This document shows, piece after piece, positions 2,935 to 13,264 of a DNA stretch of 13,264 nucleotides. The translations under genes and the position numbers were made by a program. Location of the stretch: positions 1-13,264 of the forward strand of contig DAZF01000047.1 of the NCBI GenBank assembly GCA_002507205.1, given 5' to 3'. The notes beneath the pieces were generated by a model, which saw only the letters and a list, made by a program, of their open reading frames with translations, was not told the origin of the DNA and searched no databases. The first letter of the stretch is position 1; the number at the start of each line of letters is the position of its first letter. The DNA comes from Methanolobus sp. UBA32 (GTDB lineage Archaea > Halobacteriota > Methanosarcinia > Methanosarcinales > Methanosarcinaceae).

Positions 2935-2981
2935 TCAAACCCGGGATTTGATTAATTCCCGATTCCAGTAAGGTGATTGAT

Positions 2982-4319
2982 GTGGCTATCCATCCTATAG
3001 AATACCGATACGGTACAGCGGAAATGAAGTATGTATGGAGTCAGGAAAACAGACTTGCTAAGATCTTACAGACCGAGGCAGCCCTTGCCCGGGCAGAAGC
3101 TGATATGGGACTTATCCCTGCAGAGGCAGCTGAAATCATATCCGAATGCATTACCTATGTAAAAGCAGAAAGGGTCGATGAAATCGAAGCTGAGATCCAT
3201 CATGATATGATGGCTGTTGTTGTTGCGATTTCAGAGAAATGCAGGGATGACGCAGGAAAGTGGGTCCACTTCGGAGCAACTTCAAACGATATGCTCGATA
3301 CGGCAACAGCTCTCCAGATAAAAGATGCAATTAATATACTGGAAGATAAGCTCAAAGCCCTGCTCAAAGTTCTGGTAAACCAGGCAGAAGTCCACAAGAA
3401 TACGGTATGTTGCGGAAGGACTCACGGGCAAATAGGTGTTCCGACAACCTACGGACTTCGTTTTGCAATCTGGGCTTCCGAGGTCTCAAGGCACCTTGAC
3501 CGCCTCTATGAACTGACTCCAAGGGCTACCGTAGGGCAGATGACGGGAGCTGTCGGGACTCAGGCAGCTTTTGGAAAATCAGGGGTACTGATCCAGAAAC
3601 TTACAATGCAGCACCTCGGAATAGGGTCGGTGGATGTCTCAAACCAGATCATCCAGAGGGACAGGCACGCCGAGTTTGTTATGTGGATGGCAAATGTAGT
3701 TACAACACTGGACAAGATCGGGATCGAAATCAGGACTCTTCAACGCAGTGAGATCGCCGAGATAGAGGAAAGTTTCGGGAAAAAGCAGGTAGGTTCATCC
3801 ACCATGCCTCACAAGCGTAATCCTATCAAGTCCGAACAGATATGCGGTCTTGCAAGGATTGTGCGTGCAATGATCGAACCAGAACTCCAGAATAACACTC
3901 TCTGGGATGAAAGGGACCTGACCAACTCCTCATGCGAAAGAATAGTTTTCCCTGAGGCATGTGTTCTTACAGATCACATAATAAAACTCGCAATTGGTGT
4001 AATCGAGAACCTCAGGTTCTACCCTGAGAACATCCGCCGTAACCTTGACCTTCTCAGAGGTCTGAACATGGGTGAGGCTGTAATGATAGAACTTGCAAAA
4101 CGTGGTGTCGGTCGTCAGGAAGCCCACGAGCTTGTGCGTTCCAGTGCAATGGAAGCCCACGAAACAGGTAAACACTTCAAGGCCATCCTGCTGGCAAATC
4201 CAAACGTTGCAAACTACCTGAGTGAAGACGATATTATCAATCTTGTAGACCCGGACAGGTACATTGGTACTGCCGTGGAACAGGTAGAGGCAGTAGTTGC
4301 CAAGCTGAAGAGGAATTGA
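2982..4319 (+). CDS. purB: adenylosuccinate lyase
   Basis: PurB removes fumarate from SAICAR in the purine pathway and from adenylosuccinate on the way to AMP. The protein has the fumarase/aspartase superfamily layout: HFGATSND near residue 96, GRTHGQ with catalytic His148, and the signature loop GSSTMPHKRNP (271-281) with the mobile catalytic serine. At 445 residues it is normal length. The start is placed at the GTG at 2982 (protein MAIHPIEYRYG), because AAGGTGA lies five bases upstream; a GTG at 2973 would add three residues but overlaps that binding site. It stands alone, facing the histidine kinase gene with 14 bases between stop codons. The repeat-rich region upstream may control it. 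Confidence 0.95.
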   Translation: MAIHPIEYRYGTAEMKYVWSQENRLAKILQTEAALARAEADMGLIPAEAAEIISECITYVKAERVDEIEAEIHHDMMAVVVAISEKCRDDAGKWVHFGATSNDMLDTATALQIKDAINILEDKLKALLKVLVNQAEVHKNTVCCGRTHGQIGVPTTYGLRFAIWASEVSRHLDRLYELTPRATVGQMTGAVGTQAAFGKSGVLIQKLTMQHLGIGSVDVSNQIIQRDRHAEFVMWMANVVTTLDKIGIEIRTLQRSEIAEIEESFGKKQVGSSTMPHKRNPIKSEQICGLARIVRAMIEPELQNNTLWDERDLTNSSCERIVFPEACVLTDHIIKLAIGVIENLRFYPENIRRNLDLLRGLNMGEAVMIELAKRGVGRQEAHELVRSSAMEAHETGKHFKAILLANPNVANYLSEDDIINLVDPDRYIGTAVEQVEAVVAKLKRN

Positions 4320-4333
4320 TTTCCTCTTTTAAT

Positions 4334-6967
4334 CTATTTTTCAAGGTCCTGTTTTACAAACTCTATCTCGTTTTTCATTTGTTCCAGCAGATCGGGAATA
4401 ATTTCTCCATTGATCTCAATGGCCTCTTCAAGTTCCTTTGCCAGATTGCCGAGGATATTAAAATTAATATTAAGTGCAGCTCCTTTCATCTTATGGGCAT
4501 GAGCTTTTACTCCCTGTACATTTTTATTTGAAAGGTCTGTTATTATATCTTCCAGATTAGATGTAATAGATCCAATGGCCATGGAAGTCAACATGCAGTA
4601 CAATTCTTCATTCTCATTTATTGCTTCCAATAATTTATCTTTATCGAAATGTACAGGCTTAATGGAAGCATCAATGCCATCGTCATTCCTATTGATCTCT
4701 ATCATGAAAAGCCATTTATCCAGGATGTGCTGAATCACGTTGGAAACGATGGGTTTGGTGATCTGATCATCCATGCCTGCTTGCAGGCAGCGTTCCTTTT
4801 CACCCTTAAATGCATTTGCAGTAATGGCTATAATTGGTGTGCGTATTCTATTTTGTGACTCCAGTTTTCTGATTTCCCGGGAGGCGTCGTAACCATCCAT
4901 TTCAGGCATTTGTATATCCATGAAGATAAGATCAGGCTTCTTTTCGTTGAATATCCGAATGACTTCTGTTCCAGTCCCTGCTTTCAATATTTCTGCTTTA
5001 GGTAGTAATCTGGAAATAATGATTGAAGCCAATTCCATATTTGTCTGATTGTCTTCAGCTATTAATATGGAATATTTTGCTTTCTTCTTATCTTCTATGA
5101 GAACTGTGCAGGGATTTTCTGGAACATCTGTAGTAATTGTTTCTTCTTCTTCTTTTACAGGGAGAACAACCATAAAATAAAATGTGCTTCCTTTTCCAGG
5201 TTCGCTTTCAAGCTCAAGCTTAGACCCCATCATTTCCAGAAGTCTGTTTGAGATGGTTAGTCCAAGTCCGGTTCCGCCATATCTGCGGCTTATGGATCCG
5301 TCTTCCTGTGAAAATGAATCGAATATCCTGCTTCTGTTCTTTTCTGCAATTCCGATTCCGGTATCTTTTACTGAGAATGTCAGCCCAACCTTATACGTGT
5401 TATCAGGGACTGTGGATGTTTCAACTTTAAGTTCGATTTCCCCTTTCTCAGTGAACTTAATGGCATTACTCAACAGATTGATCAGTATCTGTCTCAATCG
5501 CAAATCGTCAACAATAATATGTTGTGGTAGTTCAGATACTACGTTCAATTTAAGCTCAAGCTTTTTTTCATGTGCTTTGTATTTTACAACATCTGTAATT
5601 TGGTTAAGCAACTCTACAAGGTCTGTTATTTCAGGGTCAAGTTCCAGTTTTCCGGCTTCAATTTTTGAAAAATCCAGTACATCATTGACCAGATCGAGTA
5701 ATGTATTTGCAGATGTATAAACTGTTTTCATGTAATGCAACTGAGAATCTGTAAGTTCAGTTTCCATCAGTATATCTGAAAAACCAATAACTCCATTAAG
5801 GGGTGTGCGAATCTCATGGCTCATGTTGGCAAGGAACTCACTTTTGGCACGATTTGCCATTTCTGCCTGAGCGGCCATGTTTTGTGCACGGGCTGTGGCT
5901 TCCTCAAGATATCTGTTAGTTTCAAGCAGTGTTTCTTCTGCTTTTTTCTTCTCCGTGATATCTCGGAGGGCGATCATTTGTCCTATTATGTTCTCATTAT
6001 CATCTAAAAGCGAAAGAAAATCCACATTCAACCAGACATATGCCCCATCAATGTTCCTGTTTACCTCGATACTGCCTATTCCATCCGTATTCTGCCTGTT
6101 GTTAATAAGTTCTGGCCATAAAACCAGTACTTTGGAAGCATGTTTTCCAATGTCCTCTGATGTAAGCTCAAGATATCTCATGGCGGAATGATTATAATCA
6201 ACTATTCTTTGCATTCCATCGAGAACTATTACTCCGTCAGGCAGTTTCCCGAATAATAAACTACGTGCCAGAGGAGCTACGTCCAATAGTTTGTAGTGAG
6301 TCATTCCTATATAGATCAACAGACCACTAAATGCAAGGGAATAAGGAATAGGATCAAGACCAAGTGGTACCATCTTGCCAATGTAAAGTAATAATGCTAA
6401 AAAAGGAACCAGTGTACCGATCATTACTATGGTGACCTGCTTTCGAAAAGCGGGTATTATTTCCAGCCACATTTTCAGAAGAAGGATTATGCTGAAAATG
6501 ATGCAGGCAATTCCATAGAACTGCTGAACCCCATACCATATGCCTGGTTCGAATACAAGGCTGGGGAATATGGTTTCAGAGCTCAGGAATATCCCTTTGT
6601 GATATAATGTGTGTTTTCCGGTGGTAAACACAAGAATCAGAGTAATCAATGGAATAGCAAAGGTTGCAACAATTGCAGCTGTGCTCAACCAGTGTTTTTT
6701 TCCTGTGTATTTAATCGCAAAAATAAGCATAAAAGCGGGTATAAATGGAATTCCGATGTATTCAAGTTTATAGAACGTTAAAGCAGAATTCAATGTTGTT
6801 GACGATATCTCTAATGCATAGAAAAACGCATAAATTATGCTAGAACCTAATAGTAAAGAAAAACAGGTGGCACCGGCAGTGTCTTTATGCTTAGGAATGT
6901 GGAATACCAGTACACTCAGGATACATGCCAGAACAATTAAGGGGATTGCATAGTAATTGAGGTACAT
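4334..6967 (-). CDS. hybrid sensor histidine kinase: 7TM sensor, PAS, HisKA, HATPase, REC, Hpt
   Basis: The 877-residue protein carries a complete phosphorelay. About seven hydrophobic segments fill residues 5-225, as in the histidine-kinase 7TM N-terminal domain. A PAS domain follows (about 240-340), then HisKA with phospho-acceptor His384 in [10 protein letters not shown], and an ATPase domain with N-box (NLLSNAIKF, 497-505), G1 DTGIGI (535-540) and G2 GGTGLGL (564-570). A receiver domain (about 632-750) has Glu638/Asp639, phospho-acceptor Asp684 in [10 protein letters not shown], Thr716 and Lys738. A C-terminal Hpt domain has His825 in HKMKG. All key residues are present, so it should be active. 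The ligand and the final response regulator are unknown; none is encoded nearby. The ATG at 6967 has only a weak purine-rich site upstream (AGAAGAAG). Architecture of this type is common in Methanosarcinales and probably bacterial in origin. Confidence 0.93.
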
Positions 6968-7094
6968 GTTGCTTCTTCTGCTGCATCATACAGCATTTTT
7001 GTAATTGTTTTTCAGATATTGAAATATAGGCCCATTTTCAGATGATTCTGATTATGAGCTTATAAAATCTATAAGGGAGTATTATATTACATGT

Positions 7095-7137
7095 CTATAA
7101 TATATAAATTTATATTGTTGTATGAATTATATATTCA
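7095..7137 (-). promoter_or_regulatory. candidate promoter region of the histidine kinase gene
   Basis: Several TATA-like runs on the minus strand (TTTATATATTATAG at about 7095-7109, and AATATATAAT near 7127-7136) lie 130-170 bases upstream of the kinase start. If used, the transcript has a long leader, which is frequent in Methanosarcina. TTTCA-ATATC-TGAAA within the leader could form only a small hairpin. Confidence 0.35.
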
Positions 7138-7175
7138 AATTGGTTGACTCTGTGCCTGAGTACAATTGAATAGAG

Positions 7176-7190
7176 CAAAATAAAAAAGTG
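7176..7190 (-). terminator. T-rich terminator after uvrA
   Basis: About 26 bases after the uvrA stop the minus strand reads ACTTTTTTATTTTGC, a T-rich run without a strong stem, typical of archaeal termination. It suggests that uvrA and the kinase gene are separate transcripts. Confidence 0.45.
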
Positions 7191-7215
7191 TGTGAGTTGT
7201 ATGGGTATATCCCTA

Positions 7216-10041
7216 CTACAGCATTTTCTTTAAGAACTTCCCTGTATAGGAAATATCGCTTTTTGCCACTTCTTCAGGAGTTCCCTGTGCAATAACTTCT
7301 CCACCACGGTCCCCGCCCTCTGGCCCGAGGTCTATTATCCAGTCTGCAGTCTTTATTACATCGAGGTTGTGCTCGATGACTATTACTGTGTTGCCTGCAT
7401 CCACAAGTCTCTGGAGAACCTCTAAAAGCTTTTTTACATCGTCAAAGTGAAGACCTGTAGTGGGTTCATCCAGTATGTGAACTGTTTTACCTGTTGAGCG
7501 TTTACTTAGTTCGGTTGCGAGTTTCACTCTCTGTGCCTCTCCGCCTGATAGTGTGGTGGATGACTGTCCCAGTTTTATATATCCAAGACCCACATCGTTG
7601 AGTGTCTGGAGCTTGCGGCTGATGGTTGGAACGTTCTCAAAGAATTCCAGAGCTTCTTCAACTGTCATGTCAAGGACTTCGGCTATATTCTTGTCCTTAT
7701 AGGTTACTTCGAGAGTTTCCCTATTGTAACGCTTGCCGTGACAGACCTCGCATGGGACGTAAACATCAGGCAAAAAATGCATTTCGATGGTGATTATGCC
7801 ATCACCTGAGCATGCTTCGCATCTGCCGCCACGAACATTGAAACTGAAACGTCCGGGTTTGTAACCTCTAGCACGTGACATCTTTGTCTGGGAGAAGAGT
7901 TCCCTGATGGGTGTGAATAGATTAGTGTAAGTTGCAGGATTTGACCGGGGTGTGCGGCCGATGGGTGACTGGTCTATGGTTATGACCTTGTCCACATTGC
8001 CAAGTCCATCTATGGAGCTGTATTTTCCTGGTATGTCCCTTGCTTTGTTGAGTTGCTTTGCAAGCACCTTGTTAAGTGTTTCATTGATGAGCGTACTTTT
8101 TCCTGAACCTGATACTCCGGTGATACAGAGAAGAATGCCAAGGGGGAATTCCACATCAATTGACTTGAGGTTGTTCTGACTTGCACCTCTGAGGACCATA
8201 GTGCCGGTAGCTTCCCTTCTGCTCTCCGGGACCTCTATCTTCACTTTTCCGCTCAGATATTTTCCGGTTGTAGAACTCTTGTTCTTCATTATTTCTTTAG
8301 GAGTTCCTTCGGCAACAATTTCCCCTCCATGTATGCCTGCCCCGGGTCCCATATCAACAACATAGTCGGCATTTGTTATGGTTTCCTCATCATGCTCGAC
8401 CACTATCACGGTATTTCCTATATCTCTAAGGTGTTTTAATGTTGTAATGAGCCTGAGATTATCCCTCTGGTGCAGGCCGATACTTGGCTCGTCAAGTATG
8501 TAGAGTACGCCCATAAGACTGGATCCTATCTGTGTTGCAAGCCTGATACGCTGTGCCTCGCCTCCGGAAAGCGTTGCAGCAGACCTGCTGAGCGTCAGAT
8601 AGTCCAGACCCACATCAACAAGGAATCCGAGTCTTGCCTTGATCTCTTTGAGTATGAGGCGGGCGATGGTATATTCCCTGTCGTTGAGTTTTGTTTCCAG
8701 TTCCTTGAAGAATTCCAGTGCTTCCTCAACGGACATTTCAGTAACATTGATTATGTTCTTTCCATCAATGGTTACGGCAATACTCACTGGTTTGAGTCTC
8801 TTGCCATGACAGGTCAGGCATGGTTTTGTGCTGATGTACCTGCTCATCCTTTCTTTGCTGTTCTCTGATTCCGTACCTTCGTATACCTTGGAAAGATTTG
8901 CAATAACTCCCTTGAAGCGGCCTTTGTGTTTCCACATACCGCCATTCTTTCCTACATGGACAAAAGGAATGAGTTCTTCACTGCCATTGAATATTATATG
9001 CTGTATTCCTGGGTCCAGTTCCTCAAAAGGAGTGTCCATTGAGAATCCCATGTAATTCGCCAGTGATTGGAGTGACTGCATGTAATATCCGTCAGCCTTC
9101 TTGCTGTACCAGGGTTCCACTGCTCCTTCATTAAGCGATAATGTCCTGTCGGGAACTATCAGGTCAGGATCGAATTCCATTGATGTTCCAAGGCCGTGAC
9201 ATTCGGGGCATGCACCCTGTGGACTGTTGAATGAGAATGCTGCAGGTTCCATTTCTTCAAAACCGATGCCACATTCGGGACATGCGAGTTTCTCGCTGAA
9301 TGTCAGTTCCTCACCATCGATGACCTGGACTGTGAGTGTGCCTCCGCTTTTCTCAAGTGCGGTTTCCACGGAATCAGATAGTCTTTCTTCAATTCCTTTT
9401 TTGATGACAAGCCTGTCAACAACGATGTCAATATTATGCTTGAAATAACGCCCGAGTTCTATATTCTCAACATCATCCAGCGTGTGTACTTCATCATCTA
9501 TGCGCACACGTGTGAAACCCTCGGCCAGCAGGTCAGTGAGGAGTTTCTTGTATTCGCCTTTTCTCTCTCTCACAAGCGGAGCAAGTACGTGTATCTTCGT
9601 GCCCTCTCGCAGGTTCATGATGCTGTCAACAATCTGGTCAACACTCTGTGTCTCGATTATCCGTCCACAATCGGGGCAGTGCCTTATGCCGATACGGGCA
9701 AAGAGCAGTCTCAGGTAATCATAAATTTCAGTAACAGTGCCCACCGTAGAGCGAGGGTTCTTGCTTGTGGTCTTCTGCTCAATGGATATGGCAGGGGACA
9801 GCCCTTCGATGTACTCCACATCCGGTTTTTCCATAAGCCCCAGGAACTGCCTGGCATACGCTGAGAGTGATTCCACATACCTGCGCTGTCCCTCTGCGTA
9901 AATTGTATCAAAAGCAAGTGATGATTTGCCTGACCCGCTAAGCCCGGTAATGACAATAAGCTTGTCACGGGGCAGGGTGAGGTCAACATTCTTAAGGTTG
10001 TGCTCCTTAGCACCTTTTATCCTGATGCTGCTCAAAGACAT
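7216..10041 (-). CDS. uvrA: excinuclease ABC subunit A
   Basis: UvrA is the damage-sensing ATPase that loads UvrB on damaged DNA in bacterial-type nucleotide excision repair. The 941-residue protein is full length and has both ABC modules: Walker [10 protein letters not shown] (33-41) and GVSGSGKST (642-650), signatures LSGGEAQR (491-498 and 831-838), and Walker B ILDEP (515-519 and 856-860). Zinc-binding pairs are all present: CPDC (122-125) with CLTC (408-411), CPEC (254-257) with CPEC (278-281), and CEAC (741-744) with CEVC (764-767). It starts at ATG 10041 and ends in TAG. Neither uvrB nor uvrC is beside it in the window. Archaea that have UvrABC are thought to have gained it from bacteria; no break in base use is obvious here. 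A 23-base part (8767-8789) is repeated at the right edge of the window. Confidence 0.97.
8767..8789. repeat. 23-base exact repeat, internal copy (in uvrA)
   Basis: This stretch lies within uvrA codons about 418-425 (VSIAVTI) and is identical, in the same plus-strand orientation, to the last 23 bases of the window. The uvrA frame runs through it undisturbed and reads as normal family sequence, so this copy is the authentic one. Confidence 0.9.
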
Positions 10042-10101
10042 TGTTTATCTCATGAGGTTGATTAATAGGTATAGTTTACGGTGAACTGCACAAAATTTAA
10101 A

Positions 10102-10117
10102 AAGAGTTTATACTCTT
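10102..10117 (-). promoter_or_regulatory. inverted repeat overlapping a TATA-like element upstream of uvrA
   Basis: AAGAGT and ACTCTT form a perfect six-base inverted repeat around four bases. Read toward uvrA it contains AGTATAAAC, about 65 bases before the start codon, so it could be the TATA region and a binding site for a repressor at once. No known archaeal damage regulator site is recognised. Confidence 0.3.
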
Positions 10118-10387
10118 GCATTCTCTCGGTTTGCTGCATTCTTTTTTTGCATGCTGCGGATCAAGGTTATGATCTTTACTTTTCTCTCGAATTCTGTCAT
10201 TGAGTTGTTAATTGGAATTTTGGATATATACGGGTGATGTAAGCGGGGTGAAAGTATTATATTAGTGGTATCTTCACTTCCTGTTCAAATGATAGGATAC
10301 ATACTTCAACTGGTTTAGTTTGAGAATTATCGCAATGAATAGAGCTGAAATATTAATATGCAGTAGTATTTATTTATATGTATTCAT

Positions 10388-10432
10388 AATTTATATATAC
10401 ATAAACACTAACTATATATTATAAAAATATTC
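10388..10432 (+). promoter_or_regulatory. AT-rich promoter region of the membrane protein/actin operon
   Basis: TTTATATATA (10390-10399) and CTATATATTATAAAAATA (10412-10429) are strong TATA-like elements 50-85 bases before the start at 10476. The second would put the transcript start near 10440-10445. Confidence 0.45.
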
Positions 10433-10442
10433 AATACACGTA

Positions 10443-10472
10443 ATGGAATCAAAATTCAGATACTATTTTTGA
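10443..10472 (+). other. possible nine-codon leader ORF
   Basis: ATG at 10443 opens a nine-codon frame (MESKFRYYF) that ends at TGA 10470-10472. One codon later, in the same frame, comes the ATG of the membrane protein gene, which has no visible ribosome binding site of its own. Chance is quite possible at this length. Confidence 0.15.
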
Positions 10473-10475
10473 TCG

Positions 10476-11207
10476 ATGATATTCCTCTCTGGCATCATTT
10501 TATCCATCAGTGCAATCGGGTTTGCTATAATGGTTCATCTCAGGAGGACATCTGATCCTTCTGAAATAATAACCACTTATGGTCTTCTGGGCATTGGATT
10601 TTCCTTTGTATTACTGGGAATAAATCTGATGCTCAGCCAGCGCAGACCTTACGGCCTTTATAGTAATTGGGTTATGATATTCGGATTCCTGTCTTCAATT
10701 TGCGGAGTAGTTTACTTTGCAACTATCTATTCAAACAACTGGGTGTATCCAAATGTTAGCTATGTATTTTTTTCATATGCTGCAGGCATCTGTCTCCTTT
10801 CAGGAAATGCCTTTGGAAACGCAGTTCTAAAGCTTATTGAAGAGCGTTCCAAGCTGGTGCTTGAAACAGATACGGTCAATCAGTATTCCATTGAGGATAT
10901 TGAAAAAGAAGTCGAAAAGACTTTGAATGAGTCTTTATCCGGCAATAGTAGTTTTTCGACATTTAATTTGGGTATAAAGGAAGATAAATCTGATTTTGTT
11001 CTGGAAAAAGCTCTAAAGGAATCACCACAGAGCAAAGTTAAATTGAAAGATAGTATCAGGGAAGTCGAATTTCTGCAAAACACCATTAGTGGAAAGGTCA
11101 AAGTGAGCGATTGTGGTATTGATCTGACGAGCAAAATGCTAAGTGCAACGATGAAACAGAGTGCTGCGGCACAAAATAAAACCTTATCAGATAAACTTAA
11201 AATTTAA
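10476..11207 (+). CDS. four-transmembrane protein with long cytoplasmic tail, unknown function
   Basis: The 243-residue protein has four hydrophobic segments (about 2-20, 34-54, 64-85 and 94-116) and then a charged, hydrophilic tail of about 125 residues. The positive residues in the middle loop (SQRRPYG) and after segment 4 suggest that the tail is cytoplasmic. The tail has Glu/Lys-rich stretches that could form helices (139-150 and 171-200). No enzyme motif is seen. The general plan recalls four-helix membrane proteins of haloarchaea, but I cannot name the family with confidence. It is 19 bases upstream of the actin-like gene, so the two are surely cotranscribed; a role as membrane anchor or regulator of that filament protein is my inference. 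The ATG at 10476 has no clear ribosome binding site; a short in-frame ORF ends just before it. Confidence 0.8.
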   Translation: MIFLSGIILSISAIGFAIMVHLRRTSDPSEIITTYGLLGIGFSFVLLGINLMLSQRRPYGLYSNWVMIFGFLSSICGVVYFATIYSNNWVYPNVSYVFFSYAAGICLLSGNAFGNAVLKLIEERSKLVLETDTVNQYSIEDIEKEVEKTLNESLSGNSSFSTFNLGIKEDKSDFVLEKALKESPQSKVKLKDSIREVEFLQNTISGKVKVSDCGIDLTSKMLSATMKQSAAAQNKTLSDKLKI

Positions 11208-11226
11208 TTCAATCAGGAGATAAAAC

Positions 11227-12278
11227 ATGGCAAAAGGACTTGATGTTGGAACTATGAATATAATAAGTGCAGAGAAAGGAAAAGGAGATTCAATTTCATT
11301 TGCACAGCAAAGAAATGCGTTTTTGGAAATGGAAGCGGGGGATCTGGCACAAAACATGCTGGACAGCGCCAAGATACTATACACTCAAAAGGATAACATG
11401 ATCAATGTACTTGGGGAAGATGCTTTCAAGTTTTCAAATGTGTTCAACAAGTCAATTAGAAGGCCAATGAAACAGGGAATTATCAGTCCTGACGAAAAAG
11501 AATCCATTCCGATGATCAAACTGATCATTGAGAGAGTATTAGGTAAGCCTGAAAAAGAGGGAGAGATCGTATACATTTCTGTTCCTGCAAGTCCTGTTGA
11601 CAGCAAGGTCAACGTACTGTATCACAGCAAAACCGTTGAAGCTCTGGCAAAAAGATTCGGTTATCAGACCCATTTGATCGATGAGGGTCTGGCAGTTGTA
11701 TTTTCCGAGCTTGGAGACTTCAATTTTACAGGTATTGGAATTAGTGTGGGAGCAGGCATGACTAATATAACAGTTGCCTATCTTGCAACTCCTGTAGTCT
11801 CATTTAGTATTGCAAGAGGCGGAGACTGGATGGATGAACAGGTGTCCAGTGCTACCGGAGTAGCAAATGAAAGAATAACTCAATAAAAGAAAGTGATTTT
11901 TCATTAAGCTCAGAGTATGAGATTGGAAGCGTTCAGGGTGCACTTGCCCTCTATTACGATGCTTTAATAACTTATATCATTGCAAATCTGAAACGAAAAC
12001 TCTCCGAAGTAGCTCCACCAGATGCTGAATTCCCAGTTGCGATCGCAGGTGGCAGCAGCCGGGCAAGAGGATTCATGGAAATGTTCGAAATGAGAATAAA
12101 TGAAGCTAACCTTCCTATAAATATCTCAAAAGTAAAGAAGAACAAATATGTTTTATCAGACTCTAAAGACCCTATATATTCCATCGCAAGAGGATGTCTG
12201 ATTGCAACTCTTACAAGAGAAGATGCTGAAATGGTTGAAGCTGTAGAGGCTAAACCTGAGAAGGTAGCTTCGGCTTAA
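11227..12278 (+). CDS. actin/MreB-like ATPase, interrupted by a -1 frame change
   Basis: Two frames together encode one actin-superfamily protein of about 350 residues. The first, 11227-11886, gives 219 residues with phosphate-1 GLDVGTMNI (4-12), a central IYISVPASP-type strand (115-123), DEGLAVVFS (152-160), phosphate-2 ISVGAGMTN (172-180) and ARGGDWMDEQ (196-205). It stops at TAA 11884 after ITQ. The family continues at once in the -1 frame (IKESDFSLSSEYEIG...) to TAA 12276, including the adenosine motif AIAGGSSRARGF. One missing A in the run near 11882-11888 would explain it. MreB and archaeal actin homologues form filaments that shape cells or move cargo. The start has TCAGGAG with good spacing. 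It follows the membrane protein gene by 19 bases. The usual Asp of phosphate-2 is Ser173 here. A sequencing error, a real mutation or recoding are all possible; I favour an error, since the second half shows no decay. Confidence 0.85.
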
Positions 12279-12280
12279 CC

Positions 12281-12297
12281 TTCTTTTCTTTTTTATT
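12281..12297 (+). terminator. T-rich terminator after the actin-like gene
   Basis: Immediately after the TAA at 12276-12278 the plus strand reads TTCTTTTCTTTTTTATT, a pyrimidine run without a stem, as expected for archaeal intrinsic termination. Confidence 0.5.
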
Positions 12298-12437
12298 CAG
12301 GCCAAAATCCCCCAGTGTTTTGTTTTATTCTCTTTTAGAATTTCAGCAAACTCATTCAAATAGAATTACTTGCCTGAATTATCAGGATTAATGGACTAAG
12401 TGATTAATTAAGGTCATTTTTTTGTATCTCTTCCAAT

Positions 12438-12480
12438 CCACTACAGTTTCCTGACGCTTATCTATATAAATCTATAGTGG
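12438..12480 (+). promoter_or_regulatory. flavodoxin promoter: TATA box framed by an inverted repeat
   Basis: TATATAAA at 12463-12470 is 45 bases before the flavodoxin ATG, giving a leader of about 20 bases. CCACTACAG (12438-12446) and CTATAGTGG (12472-12480) are inverted copies with one mismatch on the two sides of the box, which could be an operator. The sequence does not match a redox operator that I can name. Confidence 0.5.
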
Positions 12481-12514
12481 ATAAACTAGATTATCAAAAA
12501 ACAGAGGTATCTAT

Positions 12515-13009
12515 ATGAAGACACTTGTTACATACATGACCCAGACCGGAAACACAAAGAAGATTGCAGAAGCCATTTACGGAGAACTTGAAGGGGAAAA
12601 GGAGATTAAACCAATAGGTGAGGTAACAAACCTTGAAGGATATGACCTTACTTTCATAGGTTTCCCTGTATTGCAGTTCGATGTTCCTCCTAAGGTGAAA
12701 ACCCTCTTATCAGAGAAAACATCCGGCAAGAACATTGCCATATTCATGACCCACGCTGTGCCAGAAGGATTCGAAGCAATCCACTCATGGACAGGTTCCG
12801 CTTCAGAGGCTGCTGCCGGTGCCAATGTTCTTGGTTCATTTGATTGTCAGGGAGAACTTGCCCAGCCTGTTATTGACATGCTCTTAAAGGCAGACGACCC
12901 GCAGATGAAAGCATTCGGTGAGATGGGTCCATCCACAAAAGGACAGCCGGATGAATCCCGTGTACAGAAGGCAAAGGAATTCGCAAAGGAAATCCAGGCT
13001 AAATTATAA
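12515..13009 (+). CDS. flavodoxin family protein
   Basis: Flavodoxins are small FMN-binding electron carriers of the cytoplasm. The 164-residue protein has the flavodoxin fold marks: an N-terminal strand MKTLVTYM followed by the FMN phosphate loop TQTGNT (9-14), a second strand YDLTFIGFPV (43-52), and a third strand KNIAIFMTHA (72-81). The length is normal. GAGGT lies seven bases before the ATG at 12515. It begins its own transcript behind a clear TATA box and is followed after 65 bases by a four-cysteine protein gene, which suggests a redox pair. The exact partner is unknown; in methanogens such proteins may exchange electrons with ferredoxin or iron-sulfur flavoproteins. Confidence 0.92.
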   Translation: MKTLVTYMTQTGNTKKIAEAIYGELEGEKEIKPIGEVTNLEGYDLTFIGFPVLQFDVPPKVKTLLSEKTSGKNIAIFMTHAVPEGFEAIHSWTGSASEAAAGANVLGSFDCQGELAQPVIDMLLKADDPQMKAFGEMGPSTKGQPDESRVQKAKEFAKEIQAKL

Positions 13010-13074
13010 TTACCTGTCTAACTTATCTTAATCTGTAAAAACGTCGATATACAAAAGAACGGAGGGGATAATGT

Positions 13075-13264
13075 ATGGCAGACCAGAAAAAAGCTCCAGT
13101 ATTCTGTGAGAACTACTGTCTTGTATGCAAAGGTGCACGTGCCGGTAATGGCTTTTTCAAGGCAATCCAGAACCTTGAACTCAAGATATTCGGCAAGAAT
13201 GGTTGTCCCTGGGGTAAGGCAAGAACAGAATACTATGGTGTAATGGTTACGGCAATACTCACTG
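13075..13264 (+). CDS. small cysteine-rich protein, unknown function, N-terminal part
   Basis: A frame opens at ATG 13075 behind a strong GGAGGGG and runs off the right edge. The first 56 residues begin MADQKKAPVF and include Cys11, Cys15, Cys18 and Cys44, in the pattern C-x3-C-x2-C with a later NGCPWGKARTEYYGV. Four cysteines with this spacing suggest a metal or iron-sulfur site. It lies 65 bases after the flavodoxin gene with no promoter seen between them, so it is probably cotranscribed and may work with it in electron transfer (inference). From 13242 on the sequence is a copy of part of uvrA, so the codons after Val56 are probably not genuine. An ATG at 13071 is in another frame and soon stops. 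Confidence 0.7.
   Translation, partial: MADQKKAPVFCENYCLVCKGARAGNGFFKAIQNLELKIFGKNGCPWGKARTEYYGVMVTAILT
13242..13264. repeat. 23-base exact repeat, terminal copy (matches inside uvrA)
   Basis: The last 23 bases of the window are identical to 8767-8789 in uvrA, read on the same strand. The match begins within the small cysteine-rich gene right after the plausible family sequence EYYGV. A match of this length is not expected by chance in 13 kb, so a chimeric read or an assembly artefact at a contig end is likely. Confidence 0.9.

Follow-up and report, generated by a model that had tools for sequence, protein, structure and literature searches.

The locus

The window, which is the whole stretch of 13,264 nucleotides from Methanolobus sp. 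UBA32 that was analysed, carries two same-strand genes between uvrA and a flavodoxin gene: a membrane protein gene of the DUF7139 family and a gene for the actin-like protein volactin. The features discussed below are as follows.

7216..10041, minus strand: uvrA, intact upstream neighbour, used as context and phylogenetic marker and lying outside the module
10443..10475, plus strand: stretch with which the DUF7139 gene begins in the annotation of 14 of 19 aligned relatives, interrupted in the window by an in-frame TGA
10476..11207, plus strand: remaining DUF7139 open reading frame, with four predicted transmembrane helices and most of the probably cytoplasmic tail (PF23600, 28.8 bits)
10860..11204, plus strand: tail region with segments conserved in volactin-linked proteins, corresponding to predicted helices 150-166, 206-215 and 224-260 of the relative P0124
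11227..11886, plus strand: volactin 5' part, matching positions 1-217 of PF25216 and cut short by a TAA
11887..12278, plus strand: volactin 3' part, matching positions 221-320 of PF25216 and read in another frame owing to a one-base shift near 11880
12515..13009, plus strand: flavodoxin gene, intact downstream neighbour, context only

The preliminary description had placed here, at 10476..12278, an operon of a four-helix membrane protein and an actin/MreB-like ATPase. The second protein is indeed actin-like, and both of its pieces belong to the Pfam family Volactin (PF25216), with 264.3 bits (E=2.4e-78) for positions 1-217 and 95.9 bits (E=4.4e-27) for positions 221-320, well above the family cut-off of 35 bits; the assignment to volactin is that of this family match. 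The match to the MreB family is far weaker (E=1.6e-8 vs. 2.4e-78). A grouping with Hsp70, which had been named as the result that would speak against a filament protein, was not found: Hsp70/DnaK is not the best family or fold match, and an actin fold is predicted for an intact volactin relative.

The layout of the pair was recognised correctly in that a membrane protein frame is followed on the same strand by the actin-like frame, which opens at ATG 11227, 19 bases after the end of the first. A single intact actin-like frame spanning 11227-12278 is not found in the window: translation stops early, at TAA 11884-11886 after 219 codons, and the rest of volactin, up to 12278, lies in another frame beyond a one-base frameshift near 11880. 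A programmed frameshift was considered and rejected, as by eye there is no usual slippery heptamer around 11880 and the break is absent from the aligned relatives.

The membrane protein frame (10476-11207) has 243 codons and matches DUF7139 (PF23600) with 28.8 bits (E=1e-6) against a cut-off of 30; its intact relative P0124, from Methanolobus mangrovi, reaches 33.7 bits. In 14 of 19 aligned relatives, the annotated start lies at least 11 codons farther upstream, and the window has an in-frame TGA at approx. 10473-10475 within that upstream stretch. Because the other five relatives start at the window methionine (P0133, P0134, and P0136) or further in (two proteins), this TGA would count as a lesion only if translation really begins at the upstream site. 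A TAG-encoded pyrrolysine does not apply, since the codon is TGA. At the other end of the gene, a 5-base deletion near 11200 shifts the C-terminus, and the last residues present in the intact relative are lost. The 19-base gap described earlier is real in the window, but it is a product of this deletion: the intergenic distance is 3 bases in the intact relative and ranges from -17 to +3 in 13 Methanosarcinaceae loci (L001-L006 and L008-L014). Viral relatives of the membrane protein were not confirmed, and Foldseek returned no fold match for it in the PDB at E<=0.001, which is not evidence of a new fold.

Elsewhere in the window, positions 4334-6967 (minus strand) encode a hybrid histidine kinase of 877 residues, in which a 7TM sensor is combined with PAS, kinase, receiver, and Hpt domains. 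The purB-like gene at 2973-4319 (plus strand) has a dS of 1.16 to the nearest relative, compared with 0.53-0.61 for its neighbours, and on this sequence comparison may have been replaced by a different copy. In three Methanolobus genomes that lack the operon (loci L100, L101, and L102), the site between uvrA and the flavodoxin gene holds open reading frames that look, by eye, transposase- or sensor-like.

Decay or error

Positions 2983-13243 of the window are collinear with the nearest relative found, genome G157, at 87% identity. Compared with that relative, the operon carries three differences that affect its frames, namely the upstream nonsense codon and the 5-base deletion in the membrane protein gene and the one-base frameshift in volactin. 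The dN/dS ratios against G157 are 0.091 for the DUF7139 gene, 0.017 and 0.054 for volactin on either side of the frameshift, and 0.025 for uvrA. These low values argue against long-standing decay and so point either to recent decay or to errors.

There is an even chance that the lesions are sequencing or assembly errors and that the operon is intact in the organism. The low ratios on both sides of the frameshift, which leave no room for old decay, fit such errors, as does the nature of the lesions: two of the three are small indels, and the third, the TGA, is no lesion at all if translation begins at 10476. Against errors stands their distribution, as all of the lesions fall within approx. 1.8 kb of approx. 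10.8 kb of coding sequence while the neighbouring frames (uvrA, the histidine kinase, purB, and the flavodoxin gene) are open; the chance that three random lesions would all fall in the 1.8 kb is approx. 0.005, or approx. 0.03 for the two indels alone. Moreover, the search left 17 of 27 Methanolobus genomes with no sign of the operon, and G134, a genome of the same family, carries a volactin with several stop codons, which is a separately decayed copy and not the same break as that in the window. The window locus is most likely a damaged version of an ancient archaeal module of two genes, and as the pair is not intact in the window, it may do nothing here.

Conserved adjacency of volactin and DUF7139 genes

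When genome contigs were searched with an alignment of volactin, 244 relatives came up, and the best 80 were kept. Among these best 80 of 244 loci, the gene immediately upstream of volactin on the same strand encodes a DUF7139 protein in 72 cases (71 found by a search model that was trained on many of the same proteins, plus L015 added by hand). A model built from only 20 proteins of the Methanolobus/Methanosalsum type already matched 52 loci at E<1e-3, and PF23600 itself matches all 57 aligned partner proteins at E<=0.01. Of the eight other loci, three lie at a contig end, one has the partner directly downstream (L046), and two have it farther upstream, at 1.7 kb (L052) and 0.9 kb (L063); L053 and L073 have no DUF7139 partner within 8 kb of volactin.

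Genome samples give a similar picture. In an even sample of the phylum, volactin is present in 48 of 216 genomes, and in 40 of these 48 a same-strand DUF7139 gene lies upstream at a distance of no more than 1.5 kb; the other eight are G134 and seven genomes, five of them of the Halorubrum type, in which both genes are present but unlinked. Volactin occurs in 12 of the 145 Thermoplasmatota genomes. The DUF7139 gene adjoins it in 11 of them, upstream in seven (including G435, whose volactin is split), downstream in two (G329 and G370), and divergently oriented in two (G338 and G354); in the twelfth, G319, volactin sits at a contig end. In all 11 Haloferacaceae loci picked from the 66 genomes of this family with volactin, the partner with its tail precedes volactin on the same strand, though in one, L209, which is probably a repeat of L052, the distance is 1.7 kb. 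Thus, the conserved adjacency by which the preliminary description proposed to check its pair is borne out. A third conserved partner gene was not found, as the downstream genes vary in length and strand between loci.

Several loci depart from the simple pair. In L046 (8001-12294), a DUF7139 gene stands between two volactin-family genes. In G435, two volactin gene ends lie approx. 326 kb apart on contig C1 (positions 1435032 and 1109139; L149), as if the gene had been split by rearrangement. L153 and L154, from two genomes, contain second volactin-like genes in much longer open reading frames (1184 and 775 codons, respectively) that have no adjacent DUF7139 match.

Joint presence and absence

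In Methanosarcinaceae, volactin is matched in 26 of 111 genomes. One of these is G134, whose volactin fragment (L155, contig C75), with its several stop codons, is apparently an independent pseudogene within the family; the other 25 matches are nearly full length, two of them (G017 and G275) reading past one stop. The partner adjoins volactin in all 25 genomes with the full-length gene, although in G275 it is cut by a contig end, and a volactin-type partner occurs in none of the 85 genomes that lack volactin.

Some DUF7139-like match is present in 23 of these 85 genomes, and 24 of the proteins were examined, with one second match in G271 left out. L141 and L142 carry a CHAD domain according to Pfam, a CHAD model made from these two matches 19 of 20 others, and L143 and L144 appear alike by eye. 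The volactin-type tail was detected in none of 20 Methanosarcinaceae paralogs at E<1e-3, the best value being 0.07. A DUF7139-type membrane domain joined to CHAD (L141, L142, and L212-L230) thus occurs in many genomes without volactin. Locus L211 (G241, contig C90) has a 226-codon DUF7139-type frame with neither CHAD nor the volactin-type tail, in a genome without volactin.

Within Methanolobus, 10 of the 27 genomes hold the operon. Its presence was mapped on a uvrA tree of 25 genomes and the window, nine of the genomes holding the operon; G238 (no uvrA match) and G232 (split uvrA) were left out. The distribution requires 8 changes, at least 6 of which are forced by supported branches, and its scatter is about that of shuffled labels (mean 7.6 changes). 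Some absences may be gaps, as an incomplete genome could lose two neighbouring genes together; if only the near-single-contig genomes G076, G143, G148, G229, and G242 are counted as absences, 4 changes remain on the protein uvrA tree. The operon is found at another place in some Methanolobus species, and its DNA is closer to that of the nearest relative than the flanks are (dS 0.24-0.38 vs. 0.53-1.16). Horizontal spread of the operon among Methanolobus is not claimed, as vertical descent is still compatible with the outcome of the tree test (p-AU 0.192).

In Haloferacaceae, volactin is present in 66 of 148 genomes. By hand count, two or more DUF7139 matches occur in all 66 of these, compared with 31 of the 82 genomes without volactin.

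Topology and tail of the partner protein

The preliminary description of a four-helix protein with a tail of approx. 125 residues agrees with the structure predicted for P0124 from 57 sequences (mean pLDDT 73), in which four long helices extend to approximately residue 145 and are followed by a tail of approx. 115-130 residues. Model confidence is low in the tail, where block means are mostly 42-75; the tail would contain three helices, at residues 150-166, 206-215, and 224-260. Its expected cytoplasmic location is likewise favoured, as a positive-inside count puts both ends of the protein on the cytoplasmic side for all 57 partners; this result is favoured by the terminal stretches being longer than the loops, and counting loops only gives 21 for, 8 against, and 28 tied.

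The tail is only moderately conserved, with two invariant columns among the 57 proteins (L211 and L233 of P0124). Among full-length test proteins, a model built from 25 linked haloarchaeal tails matches, at E<1e-3, all seven unlinked proteins of the Halorubrum type and all seven Thermoplasmatota-type proteins beside volactin (L046 and L145-L150). It does not match L151 and L152, which come from genomes without a volactin match, nor any of the paralogs compared (0 of 17 of the CdpA type, 0 of 4 with DUF1508, and 0 of 4 with CHAD). Another 17 haloarchaeal-type paralogs, of which six come from genomes that lack volactin, are matched by neither this nor the reverse model at E<1e-3. The reverse model, built from 43 other tails, recovers 8 of the 25 linked haloarchaeal tails at E<1e-3 and 19 of 25 at E<0.1, a threshold at which it also takes three unrelated paralogs.

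Profile comparisons link the tails of several groups. Those of ANME and Thermoplasmatota match the tails of Methanosarcinaceae at 98.5%, Archaeoglobi at 92.6%, and haloarchaea at 86.6%, and all non-haloarchaeal tails together match the haloarchaeal ones at 59%, compared with 8% for the unlinked set. Taken alone, the Methanosarcinaceae tails match the haloarchaeal tails at 1.7%; comparisons with the tails of CdpA, CHAD, and DUF1508 proteins give 0.0-0.1%. The reverse-model test and the profile comparisons include two wrong-frame rows (L106 and L119), and the tails of L151 and L152 are shortened there. Judged by these sequence models, the tails of volactin-linked proteins form a separate family.

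Long-tailed DUF7139 proteins of another kind occur at haloarchaeal-type loci (L121-L124 and L156-L169); Pfam finds six DUF1508 repeats in L121, and several others are similar by eye.

Relation to CdpA and to other actin-like systems

CdpA is the organiser of the haloarchaeal FtsZ ring and is located at the division ring together with FtsZ1, FtsZ2, and SepF. We take it to be HVO_0739, which combines DUF7139 with DUF7140. It resembles the volactin partner in having an N-terminal DUF7139 domain, which in the window copy scores just under the family cut-off, followed by a cytoplasmic tail, and some homologs of the partner bear the UniRef name 'Cell division protein A N-termi...'. In contrast to CdpA, the volactin partner has another tail and lacks DUF7140, which Pfam finds neither in the window protein nor in any of the 57 partner proteins. 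HVO_0739 is reported as a predicted membrane protein that is down-regulated with SepF and FtsZ2 when cdrS is repressed (PMC8406309).

DUF7140 forms the C-terminal domain of L105 and is present in 35 of the 216 genomes of the even sample; those sampled genomes that could be assigned, from their loci, to Methanolobus, Archaeoglobaceae, or Methanophagales gave no match to it. In a tree of the DUF7139 domain without the tails, 19 CdpA-type rows lie on one side of a branch with an SH-aLRT support of 98, and the unlinked proteins are likewise separated (96). The volactin-linked proteins require 4 changes on this tree, with the other groups lying among them; the tree has few columns and several long branches, and its root is not established. 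This picture fits a volactin partner that is the older form. A further, tentative proposal is that DUF7139 could be an ancient archaeal membrane module for holding filaments, with volactin as its first client, and that CdpA might be a duplicate whose tail was swapped for one directed to FtsZ and SepF, with DUF7140 added, the CHAD and DUF1508 proteins representing further swaps. If this were true, one anchor domain would have switched from the actin to the tubulin cytoskeleton.

Bacterial MreB is likewise an actin-fold filament with membrane partners. The window protein differs in its weaker match to that family, and, in agreement with the preliminary description, MreC, MreD, and RodZ are not among the six window proteins scanned with Pfam. 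The filament proteins MamK and BeeR show 20-21% identity over the aligned part, and their partners and functions differ from those considered here. Among the closest counterparts is volactin of Haloferax volcanii (VolA, HVO_2015), with which the window gene shares the Pfam family PF25216 over both pieces and the actin fold predicted for an intact relative; the window copy differs in being broken by the frameshift. Going by the Haloferacaceae genomes, H. volcanii would be expected to have its tail-bearing DUF7139 gene next to HVO_2015. Synteny of the salactin gene is reported to be poor even within Halobacterium (PMC10746226), which could count against the generality of an anchor pairing.

A probable membrane partner for volactin

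Volactin forms dynamic filaments in H. volcanii cells; these span the cytoplasm, contact the membrane with their tips, and vanish quickly before cytokinesis is complete. The protein appeared to be essential and affects cell shape, and binding factors that are as yet unknown have been suggested (PMC10869688). In the accessible portions of this account no membrane anchor of volactin is named, and a DUF7139 partner appears neither there nor in those of PMC7617734. In the literature titles and abstract openings covered, which take in few subscription papers and no preprints, no mention of the pairing of volactin with DUF7139 was found, and it may have been described elsewhere.

Volactin and the DUF7139 protein are very probably functional partners, to judge from comparative sequence data. 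That the DUF7139 protein is, more specifically, the membrane anchor of volactin is a somewhat better than even proposition, on the strength of the family identities, the conserved adjacency, the joint presence and absence, the volactin-specific tail, the predicted topology, and the attachment of filaments by their tips (PMC10869688). In such an arrangement, the transmembrane domain would keep the complex in the membrane, while the short helices of the tail would bind volactin and either attach the filaments, probably at the tips, to the membrane or start their assembly at that site. CdpA, which joins the same domain to another tail, plays much this part for the FtsZ ring of haloarchaea. Of the archaeal cytoskeletal module with a four-helix anchor or controller that had been put forward, the conserved partnership stands; the window copy is broken, and the anchoring, the binding of tail to volactin, and the co-transcription of the two genes are deduced.

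The same protein might instead regulate volactin, acting in nucleation, capping, disassembly, or sensing of the membrane state, with membrane contact following as a by-product. This is the less probable reading, with perhaps one chance in a few of being correct. The gene linkage and the tail data fit regulation equally well, a low-confidence tail with three predicted helices would suit a regulatory peptide, and the fast loss of filaments before cytokinesis ends, together with the suggested binding factors (PMC10869688), also fits it. The comparative data separate neither reading from the other, but the attachment of filaments by their tips in that same account makes a tether the simpler guess.

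It is very improbable that the gene neighbourhood reflects only an inherited old order of genes whose products have no physical link, for although the adjacency could descend mostly from one ancestral arrangement, close relatives do not count as independent cases, and incomplete genomes can lose neighbouring genes together, the adjacency survives changed gene orders (downstream and divergent in Thermoplasmatota, and in L046), both genes change together several times in one genus (4 times when only near-single-contig absences are counted), and the tail tracks volactin even in genomes where the two genes are unlinked.

With the DUF7139 protein as the probable anchor, one gene family that stands beside volactin across Halobacteriota and Thermoplasmatota can now be named, and its role can be tested in an established model. 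The pairing also connects an actin system with CdpA, a protein of the FtsZ ring, by way of a common membrane domain and thus bears on how archaeal cytoskeletal filaments are recruited to the membrane. Moreover, the Methanolobus lineages that lack the pair, a condition seen repeatedly in the genus, provide natural knock-outs.
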